Assembly: GCA_902776765.1 (NCBI GenBank)
Contig: CACYRP010000011.1
Location: forward strand, 1-64,000
Direction: 5' to 3'
Length of the DNA: 64,000 bases
Origin: Fibrobacter succinogenes
GTDB taxonomy: Bacteria > Fibrobacterota > Fibrobacteria > Fibrobacterales > Fibrobacteraceae
The notes beneath the pieces were generated by a model that was not told where the DNA came from, made no database searches, and saw only the letters and a program-made list of their open reading frames with translations. The first letter of the stretch is position 1. Every line of letters starts with the position of its first letter. Position numbers and translations under genes: made by a program. Below are positions 23,247-36,059 of the stretch, piece by piece.

Positions 23247-25007
23247 TTACTTCACGACAGCGTTAGCGTGGCCGCTGTAGATGGCCTGCAAGGCGCCAGC
23301 GAGGTATGCAAGCGGAGCGTTCCAGTTGATAGCCACTTCATTTGTGGCATAGCTGCAGCGGTTATCAATGTAGGCAAGCGCAGGCTTGTCAGCAGTAGCA
23401 TAGTTCGGGCACTTCCAAAGTTCCGTTCCATCCAAATTAATATCTTGCTTGCCCAAGTGCGGCCCACCCACAAGCATGCCCGGCACCGGATCATCAACAA
23501 AATCCGATTCGCTCACGCGGTGGTGCGGGAAACGCGGGCTTCTAAAGCCAAAGCCGGTCACATAAGAAATTTCCATCGGATTCTTGCCCAAGAGATAGTC
23601 CAAGCACTGCTGGGCGCCATCCAAGAAACTCTTGTCGCCCGTGACATAGTAAGCATGGAGCAACACAATCCCGTTGTTCGCCATGGCGCTGTTACTGCCC
23701 CAGTTCCAGCTAGACGGGAATGCCGGGAGCCTATAGGCACTCGTATCGCCCACATTGCGAAGTTCCTTTGCCACGTGGAGCAAAGTCTTGCGAGCTTCAC
23801 CGCCAACCTTTGCGCCAAAGTCCGCAGAATCAAGCGCTGCATGGTAAATGGCGAGCATGTTCACATCGCCCCACCACGGGCCATCGGCCCTGAACTTGTA
23901 CTGCTTCAAATCCTTGAGGTAATCAGCTTTCTTTGTGGCACGGTAAAGCTCCGTTGCGGCAAATGCAAATTCGTCCTTGCCATCCTCTCCACCGTGCGTG
24001 TAATCGCCCGTTTGCACATCGGACGGTTGCTTGTACAAAGTCTTCGGATGGCGCTTGGCCCAATAGTAAGCCACTTCAGAAGCCTTGAGCATGCGCTTTG
24101 AAAAATCAGCATCGAACTTTGCATACACGCGAGAAGCCTGCGCCATCACCGCCGCAAAATCAAGCGTTGCCGTCAAGCTCTTTTCAATCGCATAACGCAA
24201 GGCGCCATCGAGCTCCGGCATCGTACTCGAACCGAACTTGAGCGATGTGAGTTTGTGATAAACGCCGCCATCCTTGTCTTGCATCGAAAGCATCCAATCG
24301 AGATTCCAGCGGATTTCTTCGAGCAATTCGGGCATCTTCGGGAATTCACGCGGGATGTTCCAATGGAGCGTATCCACGAATGCCGGGAAATGTTCGTACA
24401 TTTCCAAAAGCGTAAACACCGTAATGCCGGAATTCACGATGTACTTGCCATAATCACCGGCATCGTACCAGCCGCGCTGTGACTTGATAATTTTCGCATC
24501 GGCTTTCTTTGGTTCGGGCTTGCCGTTTGCCTTTGCAACCGTCTTTGCCGTCGGTAAATCCGTGCCGTAAACAATCACGCTGTCATCCGTATGGCCCATG
24601 GCGCGCGCCCACTTGCCCGCATAACGCGTTTCGAGCGCCATGCCTGCGCGCTGGAAATAGAACCACTTGAGCGCAGCCTTGGTCACGTCAACATAAACAT
24701 CCTCACCCACCACGACCGGGTTACCGATATAGCCGTCCCTGAACAAACGGTAAGTGCCAGGTTTCTTGATTGCAGAAATATCATACGTCTGCACTTCTTC
24801 ACCGCTGTATTCCCAATCGTAAACCATCGGGGCTTCGAGCGAGAGCACCACCTTCCCTGCCATGTCGCGGACTTCGAGCGGGTTGGCATCGTTACCGGGA
24901 ATCACCACAATCTTTTCGGACTCGGGAGTAAAACCAAGCTGATTTACCAAGGGAATAGCAAAAGACGGAACCGCAACCGCTAACGCAGCGAGCAAATGAT
25001 TACGCAT
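23247..25007 (-). CDS. secreted GH9 endoglucanase
   Basis: A 586-residue cellulase. Signal peptide (about 1-15), N-terminal Ig-like CelD_N domain (about 16-100: QLGFTPESEKIVVI ... YDISAIKKPGTYRLF), then the (alpha/alpha)6 GH9 barrel. The catalytic base region is RGWYDAGDYGKYIVNSG; the conserved His/Arg segment is RFPHHRVS; the acid Glu is in YATNEVAINWNAPLAYL. No carbohydrate-binding module or sorting domain follows; the protein ends shortly after the barrel. ATG 25007 is chosen because GAGG lies 7 nt upstream. It should cut beta-1,4-glucan outside the cytoplasm. Confidence 0.94.
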   Translation of the reverse strand: MRNHLLAALAVAVPSFAIPLVNQLGFTPESEKIVVIPGNDANPLEVRDMAGKVVLSLEAPMVYDWEYSGEEVQTYDISAIKKPGTYRLFRDGYIGNPVVVGEDVYVDVTKAALKWFYFQRAGMALETRYAGKWARAMGHTDDSVIVYGTDLPTAKTVAKANGKPEPKKADAKIIKSQRGWYDAGDYGKYIVNSGITVFTLLEMYEHFPAFVDTLHWNIPREFPKMPELLEEIRWNLDWMLSMQDKDGGVYHKLTSLKFGSSTMPELDGALRYAIEKSLTATLDFAAVMAQASRVYAKFDADFSKRMLKASEVAYYWAKRHPKTLYKQPSDVQTGDYTHGGEDGKDEFAFAATELYRATKKADYLKDLKQYKFRADGPWWGDVNMLAIYHAALDSADFGAKVGGEARKTLLHVAKELRNVGDTSAYRLPAFPSSWNWGSNSAMANNGIVLLHAYYVTGDKSFLDGAQQCLDYLLGKNPMEISYVTGFGFRSPRFPHHRVSESDFVDDPVPGMLVGGPHLGKQDINLDGTELWKCPNYATADKPALAYIDNRCSYATNEVAINWNAPLAYLAGALQAIYSGHANAVVK

Positions 25008-25375
25008 ACAAAACCTCATTTTTTAGGGAGACACCCGACGGGCATGACACCGTAATATATAAACCCTAATTACAATATAAAGATACCTTTAATTTAGAGA
25101 AAACGCACCATAAGGGGGCACTTTAATGTTTACCATAGATAACAAGTGTATTAAGTGTGCGGAGGACTGTGAGGGGAAATGTAACTGGATCCTTCACTGC
25201 GTTCAGGATGACGATGTAAGGAGTAGTAGGTAGAGCTTAGTAGGAAGTAGAAAGTAGACAGTAGGAAGTCAAACCTTTATGGATTCCCGCTCATCCCCGT
25301 CGAGCGAGGACTGGGAGGCGGGAATGACGGAACGCATATAGCGATTTCAAAACAGAGAGTCCACAGTAACAATAC
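25008..25375. other. intergenic region upstream of the GH9 gene
   Basis: About 370 bp. The 110 bp nearest the GH9 gene are AT-rich and hold TATATT and CTAAATT elements on the minus strand suitable for its promoter. Positions 25185-25340 contain REP-like units (GGATCCTTCACTGCGTTCAGGATGAC and GATTCCCGCTC...GGCGGGAATGAC) and a GTAGGAAGTAG word repeat. No gene seen. Confidence 0.6.
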
Positions 25376-25415
25376 AAAAAAATCCTCGGCGCATCTTGTT
25401 GCGTCGAGGATTTTT
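25376..25415 (-). terminator. terminator of the barrel/GH18-like operon
   Basis: AAATCCTCGGCGCA, loop TCTTGT, TGCGTCGAGGATTT (one G-T wobble): a long hairpin with A and T runs on both sides, 25 bp after the last gene of the operon. Confidence 0.9.
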
Positions 25416-25439: not shown

Positions 25440-26498
25440 TTACTTCTTCTTGCCACTCTTGTAGTTGATGCCCGGACGGAGTTCGAGACCAACAGTCACG
25501 AGGAGCGACACAACCGGCTCATAGTGATCCTGAGAGAGGTCATAGACGGCAACGCCAGCCATGCCTTCGCTCTTCACGTGCTGGGCAACAGCCTTCACAG
25601 ACGGAATACCCATGAACACGATAGATTCGGATTCGCTCACAGCCACTTCGGACTTGGTCGCTTCATCGAAGGTCACCGTGTAATCCGGAGTATCGAAGCG
25701 GTTCATGAGTTCTGCGTACGGGAGGTAGCCTTCGTTGCCACTTCCAACGCCCTGATGGCTCGTGCCGAGGCCCTTGGCACCAGCAAAGGACTTACCGTAG
25801 AGGAACACGACCGGAGCAAGGAGATCCTTGTTCACACCGGCAGCGGCAACAGCGTCAAGCGTTTCTTGCACAGAGTTTGCACTCTGGTTCGGAACGAGGC
25901 TGCTTTCGCTTTCGTTCATAAGGTCAGCCATGAACACATCCACATAAGCGGCGCGGTTCAAGACTTCGGCCTTGTAGGCATCCATGCCGGCGGCCGGGTA
26001 AATCACGGCCGTAACTGTAGAGCCCGAAAGACCATCGACCAAGGCGTTCAGCATCTTGGCATAGTCTTCAGAATCGTCCGTCGTAAGGTTCTGCCAGTCG
26101 AGTTCAACACCATCGCCACCGTTTGTCGAAAGCCATTCCTTGACGTTCGAAACGAACGTAGAAAGCGTTTCGTCAGAAGAAGCGATAGCCTTGAGGTTCG
26201 ATTCAGCTTCCATGCCACCCACGGACACGATAAGCTTCACGCCGTTATCCTTCGACATGCTTACGAGATTCTTGAAGTTGTCTGCATCGTATTCGTCAGC
26301 AAAGGCAACAGTACCTTCGGCACTCGGGGCGATAGACATGTAATGAATATCGGTCACGAGATTGTAGCGGATATCCTTTGCATAGAACTGAGAATACTGA
26401 CTCCAATACGGATAGAAGCCAATCACTTTGTCAGCGGCAGCCTGGGCCATAGAAGCACAGCCCATAGCAAGAGCCAATGTAATAACTTTAAAGTTCAT
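25440..26498 (-). CDS. secreted GH18-fold protein with a degenerate active site
   Basis: A 352-residue protein: signal peptide (1-20) and a GH18-type TIM barrel (KVIGFYPYWSQYSQF, VKLIVSVGGME). GH18 enzymes need DxxDxDxE; here residues 129-136 read DGVELDWQ, so the second Asp is Glu132 and the catalytic acid Glu is Gln136. The usual MxYD is FMADLM, so its Tyr is also missing. It is therefore probably not a chitinase but a glycan-binding or structural protein. It is the last gene of a six-gene operon with three outer-membrane barrels. The C-terminus is basic (YKSGKKK). The frame is intact. Confidence 0.85.
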   Translation of the reverse strand: MNFKVITLALAMGCASMAQAAADKVIGFYPYWSQYSQFYAKDIRYNLVTDIHYMSIAPSAEGTVAFADEYDADNFKNLVSMSKDNGVKLIVSVGGMEAESNLKAIASSDETLSTFVSNVKEWLSTNGGDGVELDWQNLTTDDSEDYAKMLNALVDGLSGSTVTAVIYPAAGMDAYKAEVLNRAAYVDVFMADLMNESESSLVPNQSANSVQETLDAVAAAGVNKDLLAPVVFLYGKSFAGAKGLGTSHQGVGSGNEGYLPYAELMNRFDTPDYTVTFDEATKSEVAVSESESIVFMGIPSVKAVAQHVKSEGMAGVAVYDLSQDHYEPVVSLLVTVGLELRPGINYKSGKKK

Positions 26499-26515
26499 TT
26501 TGAATACCTCTTATC

Positions 26516-27193
26516 CTATTGAATCAGACGGTCATTGCCAGCGGCATCACGGCAGTAAAAACCTTCATCCACTATAAAGGTTCCTGTTTGGGAACTAACT
26601 ATGTTTTGTTGTTCCGCCGCAATTGGCAAACTGCTACGAAGCGGATTAGCACTTTCTTCCGGACGGCATAGGCGGTATGCCCAACCATGATCTCTACCAA
26701 AAACGTTAAACTGCTGAGAAACAGCCTGATAGTCTACAGGAACCGCTAACAGGAACGACATGTCATCGTCAATACCGATCAAGTTGTATTCAGCTAAAGC
26801 ATCACGTGCACTCTTGTATTCATCCGTAGAATCGGGCAAAGATAATTTTTCAAGAAGATCATTCCACTGTTGTTCAGTATGGGAACCAATTTGCGAATGC
26901 ACGTAAATAGCCTTGACCACATCCTTATTGGCAATGAATGCCTCATTATCAGCATCCTTTAAAGCCTTGAATTCTTTACTGCTAAGATTAAGATTAGCCT
27001 CAGCCTGACTATTATAATCAGCCACATAATCCTTAATCTCAGCAATATGCAACTCCGGATGAAGAGCCAAGTACTCTTGAGGATTAAAATCAGCAGGAAG
27101 AGCTTCTGCATAAGGTTCATTAACACTCATCGAGCCGCAGGCTCCCAAAACGCCTGCCACGAGAATTAGCATGTACTGGTGAAGATTTTTCAT
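26516..27193 (-). CDS. lipoprotein of unknown function in the barrel operon
   Basis: A 225-residue protein with a lipobox (VLGACGS), so lipidation at about residue 19. The body is mostly helical and acidic (EYLALHPELHIAEIKDYVADYN), with a Cys-containing C-terminal part (YRLCRPEES ... GFYCRDAAG). No family is recognised. The start at 27193 has AGAGG upstream; an in-frame GTG at 27202 is less likely. It begins 12 bp after the third barrel and ends 17 bp before the GH18-like gene, so it is almost certainly part of the same transcript and surface assembly. Confidence 0.8.
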   Translation of the reverse strand: MKNLHQYMLILVAGVLGACGSMSVNEPYAEALPADFNPQEYLALHPELHIAEIKDYVADYNSQAEANLNLSSKEFKALKDADNEAFIANKDVVKAIYVHSQIGSHTEQQWNDLLEKLSLPDSTDEYKSARDALAEYNLIGIDDDMSFLLAVPVDYQAVSQQFNVFGRDHGWAYRLCRPEESANPLRSSLPIAAEQQNIVSSQTGTFIVDEGFYCRDAAGNDRLIQ

Positions 27194-27205
27194 TTTCAGC
27201 ACCTC

Positions 27206-29335
27206 TTAGAAATTCACCGTTACATCGGCAAGGAGAACAAGCTTGCTGATGGAAATTTTGTTAGCAGAAACGCCTGGAATGGTATATTCAAGTTCGTTCT
27301 TAAGCATACCACCCTGGAGAGAGAGGTAAGAAAGCGAAGCGAGCTTTACACGGGCACCACCCAAGGCAAGCATTTCTGTAGCCTTATTGACAACAGCGGC
27401 AGCTATCGGATAGCCAGTTCCAAATTCCTTCTTGTATATCTGGATGCCGCCAAGCAAAGCCAACGGGCCCCAAACATCAGCGGTAAAGCCACCCACAATG
27501 CGGGAAGTCTTACGCTTGAGGAAAGAGTTTTCAGAACCTTGGGCAAAAGATCCCTGGACGAGAATCTGACGGTCAAGGCCAGCAAGTGCGCCAGCTTCGA
27601 CACCGACACCCACAGCAAACTCTGTGAACTTATTTTCGCCCACAGTCAAAGTGGAATAGTCAATAGCATTCGACTGCGTGACAATATTGACGCGAGCATT
27701 GAAGGTCACCTTGTCAGCCCAGTTGACATCGGCCTTGGCGGTAATTCCCTTGCGGTCCGGAGTAGCAAGGCCAAGCGGCAAAGCAAGACCCACAGACGGA
27801 TCAAGAACCATCAACGGATCGAGTTCCATCTTCTTAGCGGTGACTCCAGAATAACCGTTACGGTAGAAGTGACCGTTCTTGTAGTTATTATTCAAGTTAA
27901 AGAACAATTGAGTACTTTCATCTTGGTCAAGCAATGCATGACCGAGATCCGTCGAACTCATCAAGTTTGTAGCCTGCAACGTTGTAGAATTGTAGACATT
28001 GAAGTAGAGGTTTTCAAGGCTAGAAGCACCGAACGTAGCGAGAACAAGGCTATCGGTCGAATTACCATAGAAAGCGTTCGCATTGAAAATTGTCGAACGT
28101 CCCTGATAAACCGGAGAAGAGGCAAGTTCAGACCAGAAACCGGAATCGGTCTGGAAGTAACCTGCATTTACCTTGAAATCGATATCGTTGATATTTCCCT
28201 TCACGAAGAGGTCTGCATAGAAGCTCTTGCCATCCTGATCGAGATATTCTTCGTTCTTATTGACATTAGAAGGAGGATCTGTTTTCTTTTTGAGATAAAC
28301 AAACTTTTGGTTTTTGTCATTATCATAGGTAGTCTCGACAGCATAATAGGAAGTCTTTGATTCCTTAACATTGTAGTCGCGATCAACCGTCCACTTGGAC
28401 ATGGCGAATTCACCATTGAATCCAAATGTCACAGGGAGTTCCGGGAGCACCTTCTTGGAATCGAAAGCAGCATCGACAGAAATCACCCTGTTGTTATCGT
28501 AATAAACCGTATCAGTCTTGATATCTCTAGTACGACGGGTAAGTTTACGGTCCATTGCATTAACAAAGTTCACACCAAGGTGAGCACCGTAAGCATCGGC
28601 ACCGACTCGCGCACCCAAGAGGTAACGGTCAGCGAAGTCAAAGTCGAAGAACACCTGATCCAACTTCTTTGCCGTATTGCGGAGACGGGCACCCGTAAGT
28701 TGAGCCGTGATGTTATCGACAACTCCGGCGACATTACCGCTATTATAAACGATATTGAGGCCATGCAACAAGCGGCGGCTTGTCGTATCGAGGTTGCGCT
28801 TTTCAAGAGCTTCGCGACGCTTTTCCGCAAAGATTTCCGGTTCCTGCAGAATTTCGGTCTGCGGAGTGAAAATGGTGAGCGGAGTATAGCCAACACGCAT
28901 GTAACCCAAGTTAAAGTCCACATGCTTGTTCAGAATCGTACCATCGTAGCTGAACCAGTGACCGATAACCGGGTTATTGTTTTCATCATAGGCGCTCTGC
29001 CAATCCTTGTGCAAACGCAACTGGACATCAATCATGGTCTCGGAACTCGGACGAGCAGTCAAACGCAGGTTCACATCCGTGAATGCCTGATTTTCCTGAG
29101 TCGGAGATTCCTTGGCAAACTGGTCAGAAGTTGCAAAAGAAGCATTAACACCAGCCTTTGCCGTACCATTAATCTTGAGTCCCAGCACAGCTGCATTGAG
29201 AGAATCCAGCTTTTCTAACAGGGACTTCTGTTGCGTCACAACCTCGCCCTGATTATCGGCGGCAAAAGCAGATGCAGCCGAGAAAGCAATTGCGGAGGTC
29301 AATAAAATTTTGCGCATGTTCATATTGAAATTCAT
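27206..29335 (-). CDS. outer-membrane beta-barrel protein (third of the trio)
   Basis: A 709-residue protein with signal peptide (ending SAFA at about 25) and a barrel-like pattern of alternating residues to a C-terminal strand ending in Phe (LLADVTVNF). It shares short motifs with the next barrel: TPLTIFTPQ ... EPEIFAEKRREALEKR corresponds to SPLSIYNPG ... EPTIFARKRHMAQKEQ, and LALPLGLATPDRKG to LALPNGLATPNRKG. A short coiled segment (EVVTQQKSLLEKLDSLNAAV) follows the signal peptide. GGAGG lies 8 nt before the ATG. Function unknown; a porin or glycan receptor is likely. Confidence 0.82.
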   Translation of the reverse strand: MNFNMNMRKILLTSAIAFSAASAFAADNQGEVVTQQKSLLEKLDSLNAAVLGLKINGTAKAGVNASFATSDQFAKESPTQENQAFTDVNLRLTARPSSETMIDVQLRLHKDWQSAYDENNNPVIGHWFSYDGTILNKHVDFNLGYMRVGYTPLTIFTPQTEILQEPEIFAEKRREALEKRNLDTTSRRLLHGLNIVYNSGNVAGVVDNITAQLTGARLRNTAKKLDQVFFDFDFADRYLLGARVGADAYGAHLGVNFVNAMDRKLTRRTRDIKTDTVYYDNNRVISVDAAFDSKKVLPELPVTFGFNGEFAMSKWTVDRDYNVKESKTSYYAVETTYDNDKNQKFVYLKKKTDPPSNVNKNEEYLDQDGKSFYADLFVKGNINDIDFKVNAGYFQTDSGFWSELASSPVYQGRSTIFNANAFYGNSTDSLVLATFGASSLENLYFNVYNSTTLQATNLMSSTDLGHALLDQDESTQLFFNLNNNYKNGHFYRNGYSGVTAKKMELDPLMVLDPSVGLALPLGLATPDRKGITAKADVNWADKVTFNARVNIVTQSNAIDYSTLTVGENKFTEFAVGVGVEAGALAGLDRQILVQGSFAQGSENSFLKRKTSRIVGGFTADVWGPLALLGGIQIYKKEFGTGYPIAAAVVNKATEMLALGGARVKLASLSYLSLQGGMLKNELEYTIPGVSANKISISKLVLLADVTVNF

Positions 29336-29350
29336 TCTAGTTACCTCCCA

Positions 29351-31537
29351 TTAAAATTCCACATTAATGGAAGCTTCAAAAATAGACTGACTAAACTTAT
29401 GCGTGTAAGTCGTAGCAGGCAGAGTTCCCGGAGCTGCCTCAGGAGCTTCGTAGTAGTCCGGCAAGTTACGAGCAGATTCGCCAACAGCAGCAATATTGTA
29501 ATCATTCTTGACATTGATCATGCCATAGTTGATAGCAAGCCATGCATTGTCGCCAACCACATAATCAAAGCCAACCATCCAATGTGTCTGCTGGCTCTTC
29601 AGGAGAGGAACATCAGCACCCACAATCGAATTCATCACGCCACCAATGCCATAATCGGTATTGATCATCTGGAAACCAGCTGTAAAGCCGAGACGCGGCA
29701 AGAACTGGAAGGAAGCACCAACGTTCACAAAGTTGCTCGTAATCTTCGCCGATTCACCCGTCTTCAAACTTGTTTCGTTTTCGGAATGCTTGATAGAACC
29801 AGAAAATTCAGCGGCTTTACTGAAACCAACTATTTTAGCAATGTTAAACTTAGCACCACCGCCAAATTCCTTGTAAGAGACATTGTCAATCACTTCGCTT
29901 CCAGTCTTGACTTGATTGAAGATGCTAGCAAGAGCTTGAGCTTCGATCTTTTCTTCCCAATCGCCCTTAATCAAGGCGCGGAAACCCTTGCGGTTTGGAG
30001 TAGCAAGGCCGTTCGGCAAAGCAAGCTGGACAGCCGGGTCAATCATCATGCTAAGGAGAGCAAGTTGAGCAGCGGAGTAGACATTGGAACCCCAGGAGTT
30101 CTTGTTGTACAAAGCGATATTGTAGCTATTGGACTGCCCCTGCTCGAAACCCTTACCATCCGTCTTAAGTGTTCGAGTCACCGGAGAGAACTTCGGGGAA
30201 TAATTGTAGAGAGCATCGAAGGTGGAGTAAAGCGGAGAGTTCACGCCATACTTGACCGTTTCGCCATCCTTATCCGAGTTCAAAATGCGCTGGGCAAAGA
30301 AACTCGGGGACTGAGCCATGTTATTGAACCACTTTTCGTCGTTCATGATAACATCCAAGGTAAGGCCTGCACTCCAAGAATTATCCACCTTATAGCCAGC
30401 GTTCAAGGTAGCAAGTATTGCAGAACCATTTTCGCTTTCTTCGGTTTCTGGAACAAGAACGACGGTTCCCGTTTCATCCGTAACAGCCGGCATCTTAGTC
30501 TTGTTGATGGACATAGCATATTCACCGACCAAATCAAGAACAAGGTTCTTATTATTGAGGATACCAGCCACATCGGCACCGACACGACCGCTCAACACGA
30601 GCGTGTTCTGAAGACCGACTTCAAGCGGATTGATTTCTTCGCGAGTATAATCCTTTTTATTATAATCATGAACTTCGTAAGAGTAGTGATGTCTATAGAC
30701 ATAGGACTTCGATTTTTCATTATCGAAAATGAGCATCGGAGTCACGCCAACATAAACATTCTTCTGCATCGGCAAAAGTTCGATATTGCCACCGACAAGC
30801 CACTTGTCCGTACTAGAAGCAAGGGAAGCACCGGCAATGGAATCGTTCGGAAGAATGTTTCCTTCGGCACCACTCAAATCAAGCACAGACACGCGGTTGA
30901 CGCGAGCGAGGAAAGCTTCTACACGGAGTTCGCCAATCATCGGGTCGATTTCTTGACGGAACTGGAGATTTACACCCTGAAGGTTACGCTTGTTGCCATC
31001 GAGGAGCTGTTCCTTCTGGGCCATGTGGCGCTTGCGGGCAAAAATCGTCGGTTCGTACATGATGTCGATACCGGGATTGTAAATCGAGAGCGGAGAAATT
31101 TCCTGACGGAAATCACCAAGAACCCAGTAGAAATTCTTGCCGACATTGCCTTCGACATTGAGCCACTTGGCCTCAAAAGTCTTAGATGCAGCAGCAAAAT
31201 ATTCCTGCATGCCACCACCAATGCGCATAATCACATTGGCACGAACGTTTTCGTACGGACGGAAACCGAAGCTCAAGTCTGCGCTAACGAATTCATTACG
31301 CTCGACATCAGGCATCTTCACTTTATCTTTTATGACGCGCTGCTTGTCCTGATCCGAAGAGAAGCCGGAACGCTGTGCAACAGCACGAATGCTACCGCCA
31401 ATTTCGACACCACGCTTTGCATTGGCGCTATCGGCCTTGGCCTGTAATGCCTTTTGATTTTCCGCAACTACAGATGCCGATGCGGCAACCGATGCAGTAA
31501 GAAGGGCGATTAAAATATTTTTCATTTTCATATTCAT
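29351..31537 (-). CDS. outer-membrane beta-barrel protein (second of the trio)
   Basis: A 728-residue secreted protein (signal peptide ending VAASAS, about 22), with a barrel-like strand pattern and C-terminal Phe (FEASINVEF). It is a paralogue of the barrel at 27206, sharing the EPTIFARKR and LALPNGLATPNRKG motifs. Start 31537 is preferred because GGAGG stands 9 nt upstream; the ATG at 31546 touches GGAGG directly. No SusC, TonB box or plug domain is recognisable. It lies 13-15 bp from its neighbours. Confidence 0.82.
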   Translation of the reverse strand: MNMKMKNILIALLTASVAASASVVAENQKALQAKADSANAKRGVEIGGSIRAVAQRSGFSSDQDKQRVIKDKVKMPDVERNEFVSADLSFGFRPYENVRANVIMRIGGGMQEYFAAASKTFEAKWLNVEGNVGKNFYWVLGDFRQEISPLSIYNPGIDIMYEPTIFARKRHMAQKEQLLDGNKRNLQGVNLQFRQEIDPMIGELRVEAFLARVNRVSVLDLSGAEGNILPNDSIAGASLASSTDKWLVGGNIELLPMQKNVYVGVTPMLIFDNEKSKSYVYRHHYSYEVHDYNKKDYTREEINPLEVGLQNTLVLSGRVGADVAGILNNKNLVLDLVGEYAMSINKTKMPAVTDETGTVVLVPETEESENGSAILATLNAGYKVDNSWSAGLTLDVIMNDEKWFNNMAQSPSFFAQRILNSDKDGETVKYGVNSPLYSTFDALYNYSPKFSPVTRTLKTDGKGFEQGQSNSYNIALYNKNSWGSNVYSAAQLALLSMMIDPAVQLALPNGLATPNRKGFRALIKGDWEEKIEAQALASIFNQVKTGSEVIDNVSYKEFGGGAKFNIAKIVGFSKAAEFSGSIKHSENETSLKTGESAKITSNFVNVGASFQFLPRLGFTAGFQMINTDYGIGGVMNSIVGADVPLLKSQQTHWMVGFDYVVGDNAWLAINYGMINVKNDYNIAAVGESARNLPDYYEAPEAAPGTLPATTYTHKFSQSIFEASINVEF

Positions 31538-31552
31538 CTTTAGCATCCTCCC

Positions 31553-33790
31553 TTAGAACCAAGCCTTGGTTTCGGCAGCAATGTAATGGGAATGCCAATC
31601 ATTGTCAGGTACGGTTTCGTCAGAGTGCGTCATGAACTTGTAGCGGAAATGGAGACCTACGCGGTCAGAGAAATCCCAGTCAAAGCCCAAGCCGATTGCA
31701 AAGTCCTTATAATTGATAGGAGCTTTCTTAAGCCAATACGAATCGACTTCATAGGTGTACGTTCCATTTTGTTTACTAATGTCTTTTTTAATCTTCTCAA
31801 GTACATAAGCCTTATCAGACCTAAATGTTTCAAAGCCAAGGATACCCACCATGTGTAACGTCGGCGTCACAGCAATCGTAGGTTCAAACTGGCCATAGAA
31901 GCTAGTCATAAGCATGTTAGACTGCTTTTCGGAAACGGCAATCGGAGCAAAAGAAGTGGAGATTCCAGAAAGGGCGAAGTAACCGGTCATCATGATATTG
32001 CGGTCGGTACCAAACCAGTGACCGATATCGTAGCCACCCATGAAGGAGAGGTAAGAAGACCACTTGGCATGCATCGGAACTTGATTATGGCCAGCCTGGC
32101 TACCGTTTTCATAAGCAGCAAAGGATTCCCACATTTCCCACGTACCACCATAGAGACCACCGCGCTGGCGATACATCTTGGTCCCCATACTAGCTTCATC
32201 GACTGCACCAATACGGTTTCTATAAGTAAGAGTAGTATTGTTACCAGAGTCAGCCACAAAGAGCGGCTTATGCTTGGTCCAGGAGTTCGTGCCTTCCCAT
32301 ATATTGCGGCCGTTCAAACGGTAATTGAACATAACCACATCTTGACTAGGATCAATCTGGCGATGCTGGGCATACTGGAAGTCAAAATAACCACGATTGA
32401 AGCTCGGTTCCAACTTGAAGTTGATACCGGCCAAGTTCGGGGAGTAGCGGAGAGCGCCTGCATTGAGGTAAGTTTCGTCCTTACGCCAGCCCGGGAAACG
32501 TGACGGATTCGTCAAAGAATACGGAGAGTAGAAGCCCGGCTGGAAGAACACGACTTCAGCAGTCATCGGCCAACCTTCAACATACTTGCTCTGAGCCTTG
32601 ATATAAAGGCCAACTTTCGGATCAGCCATGCTAGAACGGTAGCCTTCCTTGTTAGAAATATATGCGCCCGTCGAATCCGGAACAAATACGGTGGAGTCCG
32701 TAATGCTAACACCCACATCGGCCATCAAGTAGAGCTTCGGGGTAACGTTGCCCTTCACGTCAACTGTAGCCACGTGCGTATTGAGAAGTGTCGGATAACC
32801 GAAATCATTTCGTTTAGTCCAATCCTCTTTGAACTCCGGTTCATAGAGGGTTGCCTTATCATAGGTAACACCCATGTAGTTCACGCCGACAGTAAGGTTA
32901 TCAGCAATCTTTTCCTTGGCGATACGACCATGGAGGACTGTACCGCGGAAATCGTAGCCACCGGACATTTCAAGTTCACCCGGCTGACCACCGTACATAC
33001 GGAGACCATCACGAGTACCCATGTCAGCATCAACCGGCTGAGACACGAGGAACTGAGCCTTCATGTCGTACGGGAGCTGATAGATATTGGCAAAGACACC
33101 ACCGAAGGAGCGGTTCGTCCAGAATGCACGGCCACCTTCCTTAACCGGTTTAAAAGCCTTTTCCTTATAGTAGGTAGAAACGGTCTTTTCGTCTTCGAAA
33201 AGTTCATACTGCCAGACGAAACGCGGATTGGTTTCGCGTTCCCACATGGTAAGCGGGGATGCGTTTGCCCAAATAACACCGCCTGCAGTAACGTAGGCAC
33301 CGAACACACCAGCACGAATATCGACACCGGCGTTCATTTCTTCGTTGATAGTCGAAGCGTAATAGTCCGTAGAGTGGTCGAACAAGACACGTTCATTGTT
33401 GGCATTAGATGGAGACTGCGTCGGGTTCTTGGCCAAGTAGTTTGTATAGATACCACTCAAGTCGAACGGGAACATGAGGTTCGTAAACAACGTAATGTAG
33501 GAGTTCGGCATCGCGACGACATTCACGTTCAAGATAGCGTCGACACTTGTGCGGGCTCTATCATCTTTAACCCATGGACTCGGTTCAGAATACTGGAAAT
33601 TCTTCAAACGGAAAGCCATGTAACCGGAGACTGCCAGTGGCAGATCGTCCTTACCCAAGAGAGTCGATTCCATGTTACCGGAAAGAGTATCCAACGAAGC
33701 GTGGAGGGAATCAAGCTGCAACTGCGGAGGGAGTGCCCACGCAGCACCGAGGCTAGACGCTAGTAAAAGGGAAGAAACTGTTTTGCGCAT
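31553..33790 (-). CDS. outer-membrane beta-barrel protein (first of the trio)
   Basis: A 745-residue protein with a signal peptide (MRKTVSSLLLASSLGAAWA) and long amphipathic strand pattern, ending with an aromatic residue (KAWF), as usual for BamA-assembled barrels. It has the SPLTMWERETNPRF segment that aligns with SPLSIYNPG and TPLTIFTPQ in the other two barrels but lacks the GLATP motif, so it is the most diverged member. AGAGGA precedes the start. It follows the beta-sandwich gene by 9 bp. Confidence 0.82.
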   Translation of the reverse strand: MRKTVSSLLLASSLGAAWALPPQLQLDSLHASLDTLSGNMESTLLGKDDLPLAVSGYMAFRLKNFQYSEPSPWVKDDRARTSVDAILNVNVVAMPNSYITLFTNLMFPFDLSGIYTNYLAKNPTQSPSNANNERVLFDHSTDYYASTINEEMNAGVDIRAGVFGAYVTAGGVIWANASPLTMWERETNPRFVWQYELFEDEKTVSTYYKEKAFKPVKEGGRAFWTNRSFGGVFANIYQLPYDMKAQFLVSQPVDADMGTRDGLRMYGGQPGELEMSGGYDFRGTVLHGRIAKEKIADNLTVGVNYMGVTYDKATLYEPEFKEDWTKRNDFGYPTLLNTHVATVDVKGNVTPKLYLMADVGVSITDSTVFVPDSTGAYISNKEGYRSSMADPKVGLYIKAQSKYVEGWPMTAEVVFFQPGFYSPYSLTNPSRFPGWRKDETYLNAGALRYSPNLAGINFKLEPSFNRGYFDFQYAQHRQIDPSQDVVMFNYRLNGRNIWEGTNSWTKHKPLFVADSGNNTTLTYRNRIGAVDEASMGTKMYRQRGGLYGGTWEMWESFAAYENGSQAGHNQVPMHAKWSSYLSFMGGYDIGHWFGTDRNIMMTGYFALSGISTSFAPIAVSEKQSNMLMTSFYGQFEPTIAVTPTLHMVGILGFETFRSDKAYVLEKIKKDISKQNGTYTYEVDSYWLKKAPINYKDFAIGLGFDWDFSDRVGLHFRYKFMTHSDETVPDNDWHSHYIAAETKAWF

Positions 33791-33799
33791 AAAATCCTC

Positions 33800-34543
33800 T
33801 TAAATCTCGTTACGGAACGGATAATGAGCCGGGCCTTCGTACGGCTTGCCGTGCTTCTTAATCACGATATCGTCAATCCAAACCTTGAAGGATTCGTTTT
33901 CATCCTTGCGGACTTCGAGACGGAAACCCTTGAAGTTGGACCAAGCAAACGGGAGCATCACTTCGCGAGTGTTCTTTGCATCCCAGTAAACACCGGTATT
34001 GCCGAACAGTTTGAGAGGAATGCTGAAGTGCTTCCATTCAGTCGTAATTTCGCCAAGGCTCTTGGAGCGGAGCTTTACCTGGAGGGATTCGCCGTTGCTC
34101 TTCACGCCATCGTCAACGAGCACGAACAAGGCATTTTCGCCACCTTGTGCGCCCTTGATCCAGAATTCGAGAACACCTTCTTCGAGATATGGAGTCAAGT
34201 CCACGGAACCCGCAATACAAATAGCAACACCGGAGTAGTCACTGGCGATAAGTTCGATTTCCATGGAAAGAGCACCTTCCATGGCATACTTATCCGTGAG
34301 TACCGGTTCGGGGTTTTCACGCGGGTACTGGTAGGTATAACCACCACCGCGAGGAATAGCCTCACGCATGACAACGGTGACAACTTCCTTATCAGGACGG
34401 AACGGCTTAGGATCCTTCATGACAAAGTGGGACTGGTCGCGGTCGCGGTAATCGCTAAAACCGTAGCCAGCGAAAGAAGATGAAGCAAGAAGCATCGCCG
34501 CTAGAGCGGACTTCCAAATGGCTTTTTTTAAGTTTCCATTCAT
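33800..34543 (-). CDS. secreted beta-sandwich protein, CBM11/CIA30-like
   Basis: A 247-residue protein with signal peptide (about 1-25, ending SSFA) and one galactose-binding-like beta-sandwich (about 60-235). The pattern VLEFWIKGAQGGENALFVLVDD ... (split here as EFWIKGAQGG then LFVLVDD), W-K-x-F-S-I-P-L, GFRLEV and WIDDIVIKK follows that of CBM11 and CIA30 domains. It is the first gene of the six-gene operon and may be a soluble or surface glycan-binding subunit. The promoter GCTATATT lies 35-40 nt upstream. Carbohydrate binding is inferred. Confidence 0.75.
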   Translation of the reverse strand: MNGNLKKAIWKSALAAMLLASSSFAGYGFSDYRDRDQSHFVMKDPKPFRPDKEVVTVVMREAIPRGGGYTYQYPRENPEPVLTDKYAMEGALSMEIELIASDYSGVAICIAGSVDLTPYLEEGVLEFWIKGAQGGENALFVLVDDGVKSNGESLQVKLRSKSLGEITTEWKHFSIPLKLFGNTGVYWDAKNTREVMLPFAWSNFKGFRLEVRKDENESFKVWIDDIVIKKHGKPYEGPAHYPFRNEI

Positions 34544-34577: not shown

Positions 34578-34604
34578 AATATAGCTTGTTTTTTGAAAAA
34601 TCAA
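34578..34604 (-). promoter_or_regulatory. promoter of the barrel operon
   Basis: On the minus strand TTGATT, a 15-nt spacer and TATATT precede the first gene by 35 nt; the -10 sits in AGCTATATTGT, close to the TTTTGCTATATTTG pattern of other genes here. Confidence 0.55.
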
Positions 34605-34680
34605 CGATACCCATTTGCAAAAAAGCCTTTGCAAAACACGGTCCCTCAATGGAATACCACTACTGAAGCCGCTTAGACGC

Positions 34681-34779
34681 TGGACTCAAGCGTAAACGGA
34701 AATTTTTACCAGCCCAACGTTTCAGAATGTTTACAAATTAAGATTTTTGACGAGCGTCACAATGGACTCAGGCGTAAAC
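34681..34779. promoter_or_regulatory. paired 17-bp direct repeats between divergent operons
   Basis: TGGACTCAAGCGTAAAC at 34681-34697 and TGGACTCAGGCGTAAAC at 34763-34779 differ at one base and are 82 bp apart, in the same orientation. They lie between the barrel operon (start 34543) and the GH5 gene (start 34872), a position suited to a shared transcription-factor site. The rest of the 328-bp gap is AT-rich with no coding frame. Confidence 0.6.
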
Positions 34780-34871: not shown

Positions 34872-36059
34872 ATGTTAAAAAAGTTCTTTAAAACTATGGC
34901 GACCGGTCTTGCGCTCGGATGCTCTTTCTGGGCATGCGATAGCGGTACCGCCACAGTACCGACACCGTCAAGCGGAAGCAGCAACCAACCCGTAAGCACT
35001 GTTGTTCCTGTTGATTACACCTTGGGTAGAATGATGAATACCAGACTTGGTCGCGGCATCAACCTCGGCAACTCCTGGGATTCCCCAGGTAAAGACGACA
35101 GAGGCTGGAGCAATCCCATCCGCGATACAGATTTCAAAGTCATCAAGGACGCAGGCTTTAACTCTGTGCGTATTCCGGTTCAATGGCACCAAGATGCCAA
35201 TAAAACAACCCACACTGTCAACGAAAACCGTTTGGCTGGAGTTTTAGAAGATATTCAACTCGCTATTGCAAACGATCTTGCCGTAGTTGTAAATTTCCAT
35301 CACTATGGCGATTTGAACTGCGCTGGTGGCGGCGGATACAAATGGGATAGCGAAGAGAAAAAACAGGTCAAGTGTACTTATAACGCAGCTGAATTTGAAG
35401 CAGAAAAAGCACATTTCCTTGCAATGTGGTCTCAACTGGCCTCGGTCTTAAACGCATTCCCCGATAACATGCTCGTACTTGAAATCTTAAACGAGCCGAT
35501 AATTCCCAATGGAGAACTCGTTGACAACCTGATGAACGACGCCTACGCCGTTATCCGCGCTGCCGCTCCGGGCAAAACCATCATGTTCGAATCCTACCAT
35601 GCAGCAAAATTTGCAGACCTCGATATATTGCACTTGCCGCAAGACGGAAACATTATTTATAGTGGTCACTTCTACGAACCTTACAGCTTTACCCATCAAG
35701 GACACAGCGATCAATACGAATGCAAGGGCGACGCCCCATTGCTCAATGTCGCACAGGATAGCTTAGCGTATTACAAAACGCAAGCCCTCAAACTCTATCC
35801 CGATGTCAACGGGATAGACCATGTTCCCCTGAACATGGGTGAATTCGGCGTGTCAGGCGGTGATCCGGCAAGATGCCAAAAAGGCGACCCTCCAAGCGAC
35901 AAAACCAAGGCTTATTGGACATCAAAAGCCGCAAAGGCCGCTATCGAAAACGGAATGTCATTCCATTATTGGGGATTTGGCAAAACCGGTGGATTTGACG
36001 CTTACGATACCGTCAACGAAGAGTGGTATTATGGATTCCCTCAAGCACTAATCTTCTAA
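34872..36059 (+). CDS. GH5 endoglucanase, lipoprotein
   Basis: A 395-residue GH5 enzyme with a lipoprotein-type N-terminus (LALGCSFWACDSG; either Cys may be lipidated) and a Ser/Pro/Thr-rich linker to about 45. The barrel starts at GRGINLGNSWDSP. Catalytic acid Glu208 is in VLEILNEPI and nucleophile Glu324 in LNMGEFGVSG; FHHYGD and GHFYEPYSFTHQG are further active-site strands. It should cut cellulose or related glucans at the cell surface. The start is ATG 34872 with GGGGGT upstream; a TATTTT in TTTTCTATTTTAGG (34806) may be its -10. Divergent from the barrel operon. Confidence 0.94.
   Translation: MLKKFFKTMATGLALGCSFWACDSGTATVPTPSSGSSNQPVSTVVPVDYTLGRMMNTRLGRGINLGNSWDSPGKDDRGWSNPIRDTDFKVIKDAGFNSVRIPVQWHQDANKTTHTVNENRLAGVLEDIQLAIANDLAVVVNFHHYGDLNCAGGGGYKWDSEEKKQVKCTYNAAEFEAEKAHFLAMWSQLASVLNAFPDNMLVLEILNEPIIPNGELVDNLMNDAYAVIRAAAPGKTIMFESYHAAKFADLDILHLPQDGNIIYSGHFYEPYSFTHQGHSDQYECKGDAPLLNVAQDSLAYYKTQALKLYPDVNGIDHVPLNMGEFGVSGGDPARCQKGDPPSDKTKAYWTSKAAKAAIENGMSFHYWGFGKTGGFDAYDTVNEEWYYGFPQALIF

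Follow-up and report, generated by a model that had tools for sequence, protein, structure and literature searches.

A conserved six-gene operon of Fibrobacter succinogenes as a candidate outer-membrane component of cellodextrin acquisition

A six-gene operon on the minus strand of a 64,000-nucleotide stretch of Fibrobacter succinogenes DNA (the window) is probably the missing outer-membrane route for cellulose fragments in these bacteria. Fibrobacter ranks among the main cellulose degraders of the herbivore gut. The mechanism of cellodextrin transport has been stated as unknown, and a TonB-dependent route was hypothesised for which no receptor was identified (PMC6851124). Cel51A and the GH9 enzyme Fisuc_1531 were found in the periplasm, and import of cellodextrins was proposed with the transporters not delineated (PMC4668043). 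It is considered fairly likely that the operon supplies the outer-membrane portion of a cellulose and cellodextrin acquisition system, with its barrel-type proteins B, C and D as porin-like channels. Concrete candidates for cellodextrin transport would then be the genes that lie between FSU_2007 and FSU_2012 in F. succinogenes, and an outer-membrane protein family new to Pfam, together with a phylum-wide locus layout, makes the transport question directly testable.

The six open reading frames, A to F, run in the window from 34543 down to 25440 with gaps of 9, 6, 15, 3 and 17 bp, and a single terminator hairpin follows F (Table 1). The operon is real: coordinates and hairpin agree with the preliminary description of this DNA, made from the sequence alone, which had read the genes as one single-strand unit with gaps of 3-17 bp and one terminator. 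The promoter that it placed at the front was also recovered, as a promoter-like -10 (CTATATTGTAG) that precedes A in the one conserved promoter region and is kept in relatives, and the adjacent divergent cellulase proved to be a GH5 enzyme upstream of A.

Table 1. Features of the operon and of its surroundings in the window
Feature	Position	Strand	Basis or remark
Direct repeat TTTACGCYTGAGTCCA, copy 1, possible regulator site	34763..34778	-	Kept in close species
Direct repeat TTTACGCYTGAGTCCA, copy 2, possible regulator site	34681..34696	-	Kept in close species
GH5 cellulase, divergent, associated, outside the operon	34875..36059	+	PF00150 3.8e-32
Probable -10 TATATT of the operon promoter	34578..34583	-	AAAAACAAxCTATATTxTAG before A kept in relatives
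A, secreted CBM30 protein, 247 aa	33800..34543	-	PF21582 5.5e-18; PDB CBM30 chains
B, outer-membrane barrel-type protein, 745 aa	31553..33790	-	Signal peptide, C-terminal Phe, strand-type alternation
C, predicted outer-membrane barrel, 728 aa	29351..31537	-	Low-confidence AF2 barrel, Foldseek matches, C-terminal Phe
C, alternative start, 731 aa	31546		Upstream ATG
D, paralogue of C, 709 aa	27206..29335	-	hhalign C-D, C-terminal Phe
E, lipoprotein, 225 aa from ATG	26516..27193	-	Signal peptide ending LGAC
E, alternative start, 228 aa	27202		GTG
F, predicted GH18-fold pseudo-enzyme, 352 aa	25440..26498	-	PF00704 5.6e-30
Intrinsic terminator after F	25374..25413	-	GC-rich hairpin AATCCTCGACGC...GCGCCGAGGATT, then T-run
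GH9 cellulase beyond the terminator, probable counterpart of Fisuc_1531	23247..25019	-	PF00759 1.5e-90

Pfam assigned A to CBM30 and F to GH18; B, C, D and E gave no significant family match, hence E receives no SusD-like assignment. None of the six proteins matched an NCBIfam model above the cut-offs. Domains of SusC, SusD and TonB-dependent receptors are absent from all six in both collections, as had been noted beforehand, and no SusC-like receptor or plug was found by the same searches in B, C, D or their distant homologues.

Protein A had been described as CBM11- or CIA30-like. It belongs to CBM30 instead: the match to PF21582 scores 65.9 bits against a curated cut-off of 27, CBM_11 in Pfam reaches 0.012 only, and the nearest solved structures in the PDB are the CBM30 chains 2c24 and 1wmx (E=4e-6). 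The CIA30 identity was rejected, as CIA30 is not listed for A and the matches of the genome to that family lie elsewhere.

The three marks of outer-membrane beta-barrels (signal peptide, alternating strands and a C-terminal aromatic residue) are found in B, C and D, the last of them as a C-terminal Phe in 54/54, 54/55 and 38/38 homologues, respectively. Hydrophobic residues alternate by position in C and D. By a simple score devised for this analysis, two-residue hydrophobic alternation exceeds that of shuffled sequence (median z of 3.8 for B, 2.8 for C and 2.9 for D) and is absent from F (z 0.2). An AF2 model of C, built from 12 sequences, was weak (pLDDT 51, pTM 0.52). In this low-confidence model about 20 long hairpin strands follow one another from residue 44, with no plug domain; the Foldseek matches listed were outer-membrane barrels of the MtrB, TonB receptor, FadL and AlgE types, led by 6r2q_B from the Mtr complex (E=2e-8). 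Six close sequences of B gave no usable model (pLDDT 27.5), and no fold claim is based on it. The expected barrel structure is thus supported for C at low confidence. Profile searches of the PDB with the alignments of B and C returned no match.

Profile comparison leaves no doubt that C and D are paralogues (hhalign P=100, E=2e-60), and their duplication predates the split from genus g14 in the tree. B, which had been counted as a third paralogue, joins them at best as a probable remote relative: deep profiles from all loci align B with C/D over 628 columns (P=97, E=1.9e-10), but smaller profile sets give P values of 2-16 only. Likewise, of the motifs thought common to all three barrels, the SPLT stretch occurs in B (as SPLTMW), but EPxIFAxKR is confined to C and D. 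B is very conserved, and both B and C stand outside every Pfam family. In one genome (G135) B and C are read as a single frame of 1638 aa (L113:7406-12319); this fusion was attributed to a short deletion or an assembly join at an MKKTMNMKKT repeat, which removes the C-terminus of B, and was dropped as evidence.

F has the fold of GH18 chitinases and matches them over its whole length (105.5 bits against a cut-off of 29.6), but its motif reads DGVELDWQ in place of DGxDxDWE, with Gln at the position of the catalytic Glu. The Glu is replaced in all 34 Fibrobacteraceae F proteins and intact in the relatives from genus g14. These losses confirm the early description of F as catalytically degenerate, and all relatives read indicate an inactive GH18 pseudo-enzyme. 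E was seen in Fibrobacteraceae only, where it is present in 34 of 35 loci, the remaining locus ending at a contig end.

The order A-B-C-D-E-F is kept in 35/35 Fibrobacteraceae loci as far as the contigs reach, with intergenic gaps that are mostly below 20 bp or short overlaps; the search of relatives that had been suggested thus found both order and membership conserved, which argues against a chance arrangement. The outcomes named beforehand as refuting, separate promoters with no kept order or models other than barrels, did not arise. Most of these loci include the divergent GH5 gene, and the GH9 gene adjoins F in the closest species only. Among 168 Fibrobacterota genomes, relatives of B were found in 145, relatives of C in 145 and CBM30 in 146. 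Outside the Fibrobacteraceae, 35 genomes contain both B and CBM30, three B only, one CBM30 only and 18 neither (Fisher 7.5e-11, a p-value that ignores genome kinship and overstates independence).

The pairing of B-C with a CBM30 gene and with importer and GH94 neighbours outside the Fibrobacteraceae is new here. In 27 of the 28 loci where this could be tested (families f4-f8 and f10-f12), the gene immediately after B-C encodes a CBM30 protein. This protein is usually of the full Cel51A type, with two CBM30 domains, a CBM11 domain and a GH51-like C-terminal part; the GH51 assignment is taken from the published F. succinogenes architecture, since Pfam named no more than the CBM domains and, weakly, GH79. 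The sole exception (L104, family f2, a relative from the same order) reads B-D-D without a CBM30 gene and has a large ORF (1261 codons) upstream. Genes for ABC importers or their binding proteins adjoin B, on the same strand or divergently, in 20 of the 27 loci with upstream sequence. They are of two types: SBP_bac_5/Opp, in most cases accompanied by two permeases and two ATPases, and SBP_bac_1, which occurs in genus g14 together with a MalK-type ATPase. The presence of two unrelated importers in one slot points to a functional link rather than to one frozen gene order. A GH94 cellobiose phosphorylase lies downstream or nearby in eight loci and giant GH9 cellulases in four. In genus g21, a glycogen-type phosphorylase (PF00343) follows Cel51A in place of GH94 at one locus (L081), and a similar 809-aa protein, probably also a PF00343 phosphorylase, follows it at another (L082). 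In the genome of the window, the cellodextrin pathway is, by sequence assignment, present but dispersed: Cel51A stands alone on contig C17, unlinked to the operon, family-5 binding proteins are on C4 and C39, the latter also with permeases, and one GH94 gene is on C57.

A second locus in genus g14 (L065, L067) has the composition A-B-C-D-GH20-GH18-GH18 with a further, divergent GH18 gene. The catalytic motifs of its GH18 proteins are intact, and by its content it is apparently a chitin-utilisation counterpart; one genome (G158) carries both loci. This pairing of A-B-C-D with GH20 and intact GH18 enzymes suggests that the enzymes change with the substrate and the barrels stay. In FastTree trees with midpoint rooting, B, C and D of the Fibrobacteraceae are each sister to their counterpart from the chitin-type locus. 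Read together with the lost Glu of F, these trees make a chitin-type or shared locus, in which the GH18 turned into a pseudo-enzyme, the probable ancestor of the Fibrobacteraceae operon.

By content, position and numbering, A matches Fisuc_1525/FSU_2007 and F matches Fisuc_1530/FSU_2012; from content and gene numbering, F is the probable orthologue of FSU_2012/CBP-9. FSU_2007 was reported to carry a cellulose-binding domain and to be present on every substrate (PMC4619616), and FSU_2012 is CBP-9, a cellulose-binding protein annotated as chitinase (PMC6851124, PMC3079729); the claims of cellulose binding for both originate with Jun et al. 2007 and are given here as relayed by citing papers. Expression of FSU_2012 in strain S85 was high and stable (PMC6204037) and, on cellulose, slightly below its level on glucose (-1.30; PMC6851124), thus no induction by cellulose was seen. 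As FSU_2012 is judged from its relatives to be catalytically inactive, the change in chitinase activity reported for S85 is unlikely to be due to it, and its reading as an active chitinase is thrown into doubt. No mention of FSU_2008 to FSU_2011 was found in the published Fibrobacter studies consulted.

The CBM30, ABC importer and GH94 neighbours and the chitin-type locus suggest that B and C carry out the outer-membrane step in the uptake of beta-glucans. Together with D, an old duplicate of C, they would be porin-like channels that let beta-1,4-glucan oligosaccharides into the periplasm. The secreted A would hold glucan chains at the channel mouth, in place of the CBM30 domains of Cel51A elsewhere in the phylum, F would likewise bind cellulose, and E would contribute a lipoprotein subunit to a putative complex. 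A periplasmic family-5 binding protein, an ABC importer and cellobiose phosphorylase would complete the uptake. Against this, the importer, GH94 and Cel51A genes are unlinked to the operon in Fibrobacteraceae, and the rise of TonB/ExbBD on cellulose in S85 (PMC6851124) favours a different, TonB-dependent route. A bolder form of the uptake reading, in which B, C and D make one hetero-oligomeric channel with CBM30 at its mouth that threads single cellulose chains, and not just short cellodextrins, across the outer membrane to periplasmic cellulases such as Cel51A and GH9, is judged unlikely; if true, cellulose and chitin would be imported as polymers throughout the phylum with no part played by TonB or Sus proteins.

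The preliminary description had left open glycan capture distinct from Sus or adhesion. The former is well supported by the conserved order, the CBM30 partner, the published binding and the missing Sus and TonB domains. In favour of the latter are the reports of the counterparts of A and F as envelope proteins that bind cellulose, the lost catalytic residue in 34/34 F proteins and the need of Fibrobacter for contact with cellulose: the barrels would anchor the CBM30 protein and the GH18-like binder for sticking to cellulose, and no sugar would be transported. Adhesion alone explains too little, since distant relatives have the ABC importer on one side of the barrel pair and Cel51A/GH94 on the other, a context that suggests uptake; it also leaves the chitin version with GH20 without explanation, and one study recovered the counterparts of A and F largely from the extracellular medium. 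A pure adhesion platform is rated as unlikely.

The constancy of the CBM30 neighbour would suit a role of B-C in moving Cel51A and A across the outer membrane or in holding them there, and S85 Cel51A has been found in outer membrane and periplasm. The six proteins and the Cel51A proteins scanned gave no match to POTRA or Por_Secre_tail domains; the lack of a listed type IX sorting domain in A, F and these Cel51A proteins leaves room for such a role, but that of POTRA or any other secretion-pore domain in Pfam speaks against it. With importer and phosphorylase neighbours also left unexplained and Cel51A unlinked in Fibrobacteraceae, secretion or anchoring is regarded as decidedly unlikely. It is highly improbable that B, C and D belong to the PopA-like superfamily of lipid-trapping oligomeric outer-membrane proteins and serve to shape the membrane and form vesicles. 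Members of this superfamily are present in Fibrobacter (FSU_2404, FSU_0230) and have been connected with vesicles and with growth on cellulose, and Cel51A has been linked to membrane blebbing (PMC6204037), but the named members are other genes, and the low-confidence model of C has about 20 strands, against the 16 strands and loop-8 oligomer of that superfamily, with listed matches of the MtrB, TonB receptor, FadL and AlgE types.

As in the Sus-type loci of Bacteroidota, a surface glycan binder is encoded together with an outer-membrane barrel and, among distant relatives, with hydrolases; the binder here is the CBM30 of A, and the relatives carry Cel51A, GH9, GH94, GH18 and GH20. The operon differs in having neither a SusC plug or TonB receptor nor SusD, in its two or three barrels outside Pfam, in CBM30 as the binder and in the coupling to ABC importer and phosphorylase. 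A is homologous to the CBM30 domains of F. succinogenes Cel51A (endoglucanase 2, FSU_0382, CBM30-CBM30-CBM11-GH51), whose relatives follow B-C in other families, but lacks a catalytic domain. The neighbouring SBP_bac_5 importer is of the same class (family 5, Opp-like) as the CbtA/Opp cellobiose importers of Thermotoga and Pyrococcus, which are not known to have a B-C outer-membrane partner. LamB, OprB and chitoporin may be analogous as barrels for oligosaccharides ahead of a periplasmic binding protein, but B and C are paired barrels of about 700 aa, and B, C and D gave no Pfam match to LamB/OprB, nor B and C a PDB sequence match.

The two copies of the direct repeat TTTACGCYTGAGTCCA lie 82 bp apart, between the promoter of the divergent GH5 gene and that of the operon. 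A genome-wide search for exact copies found none beyond these two, and the repeat was rejected as a genome-wide regulon signal. A further element, TTTGCAAAGGCTTTTTTGCAAA, is located at 34611-34640, just upstream of the conserved -10, and is kept in close relatives.
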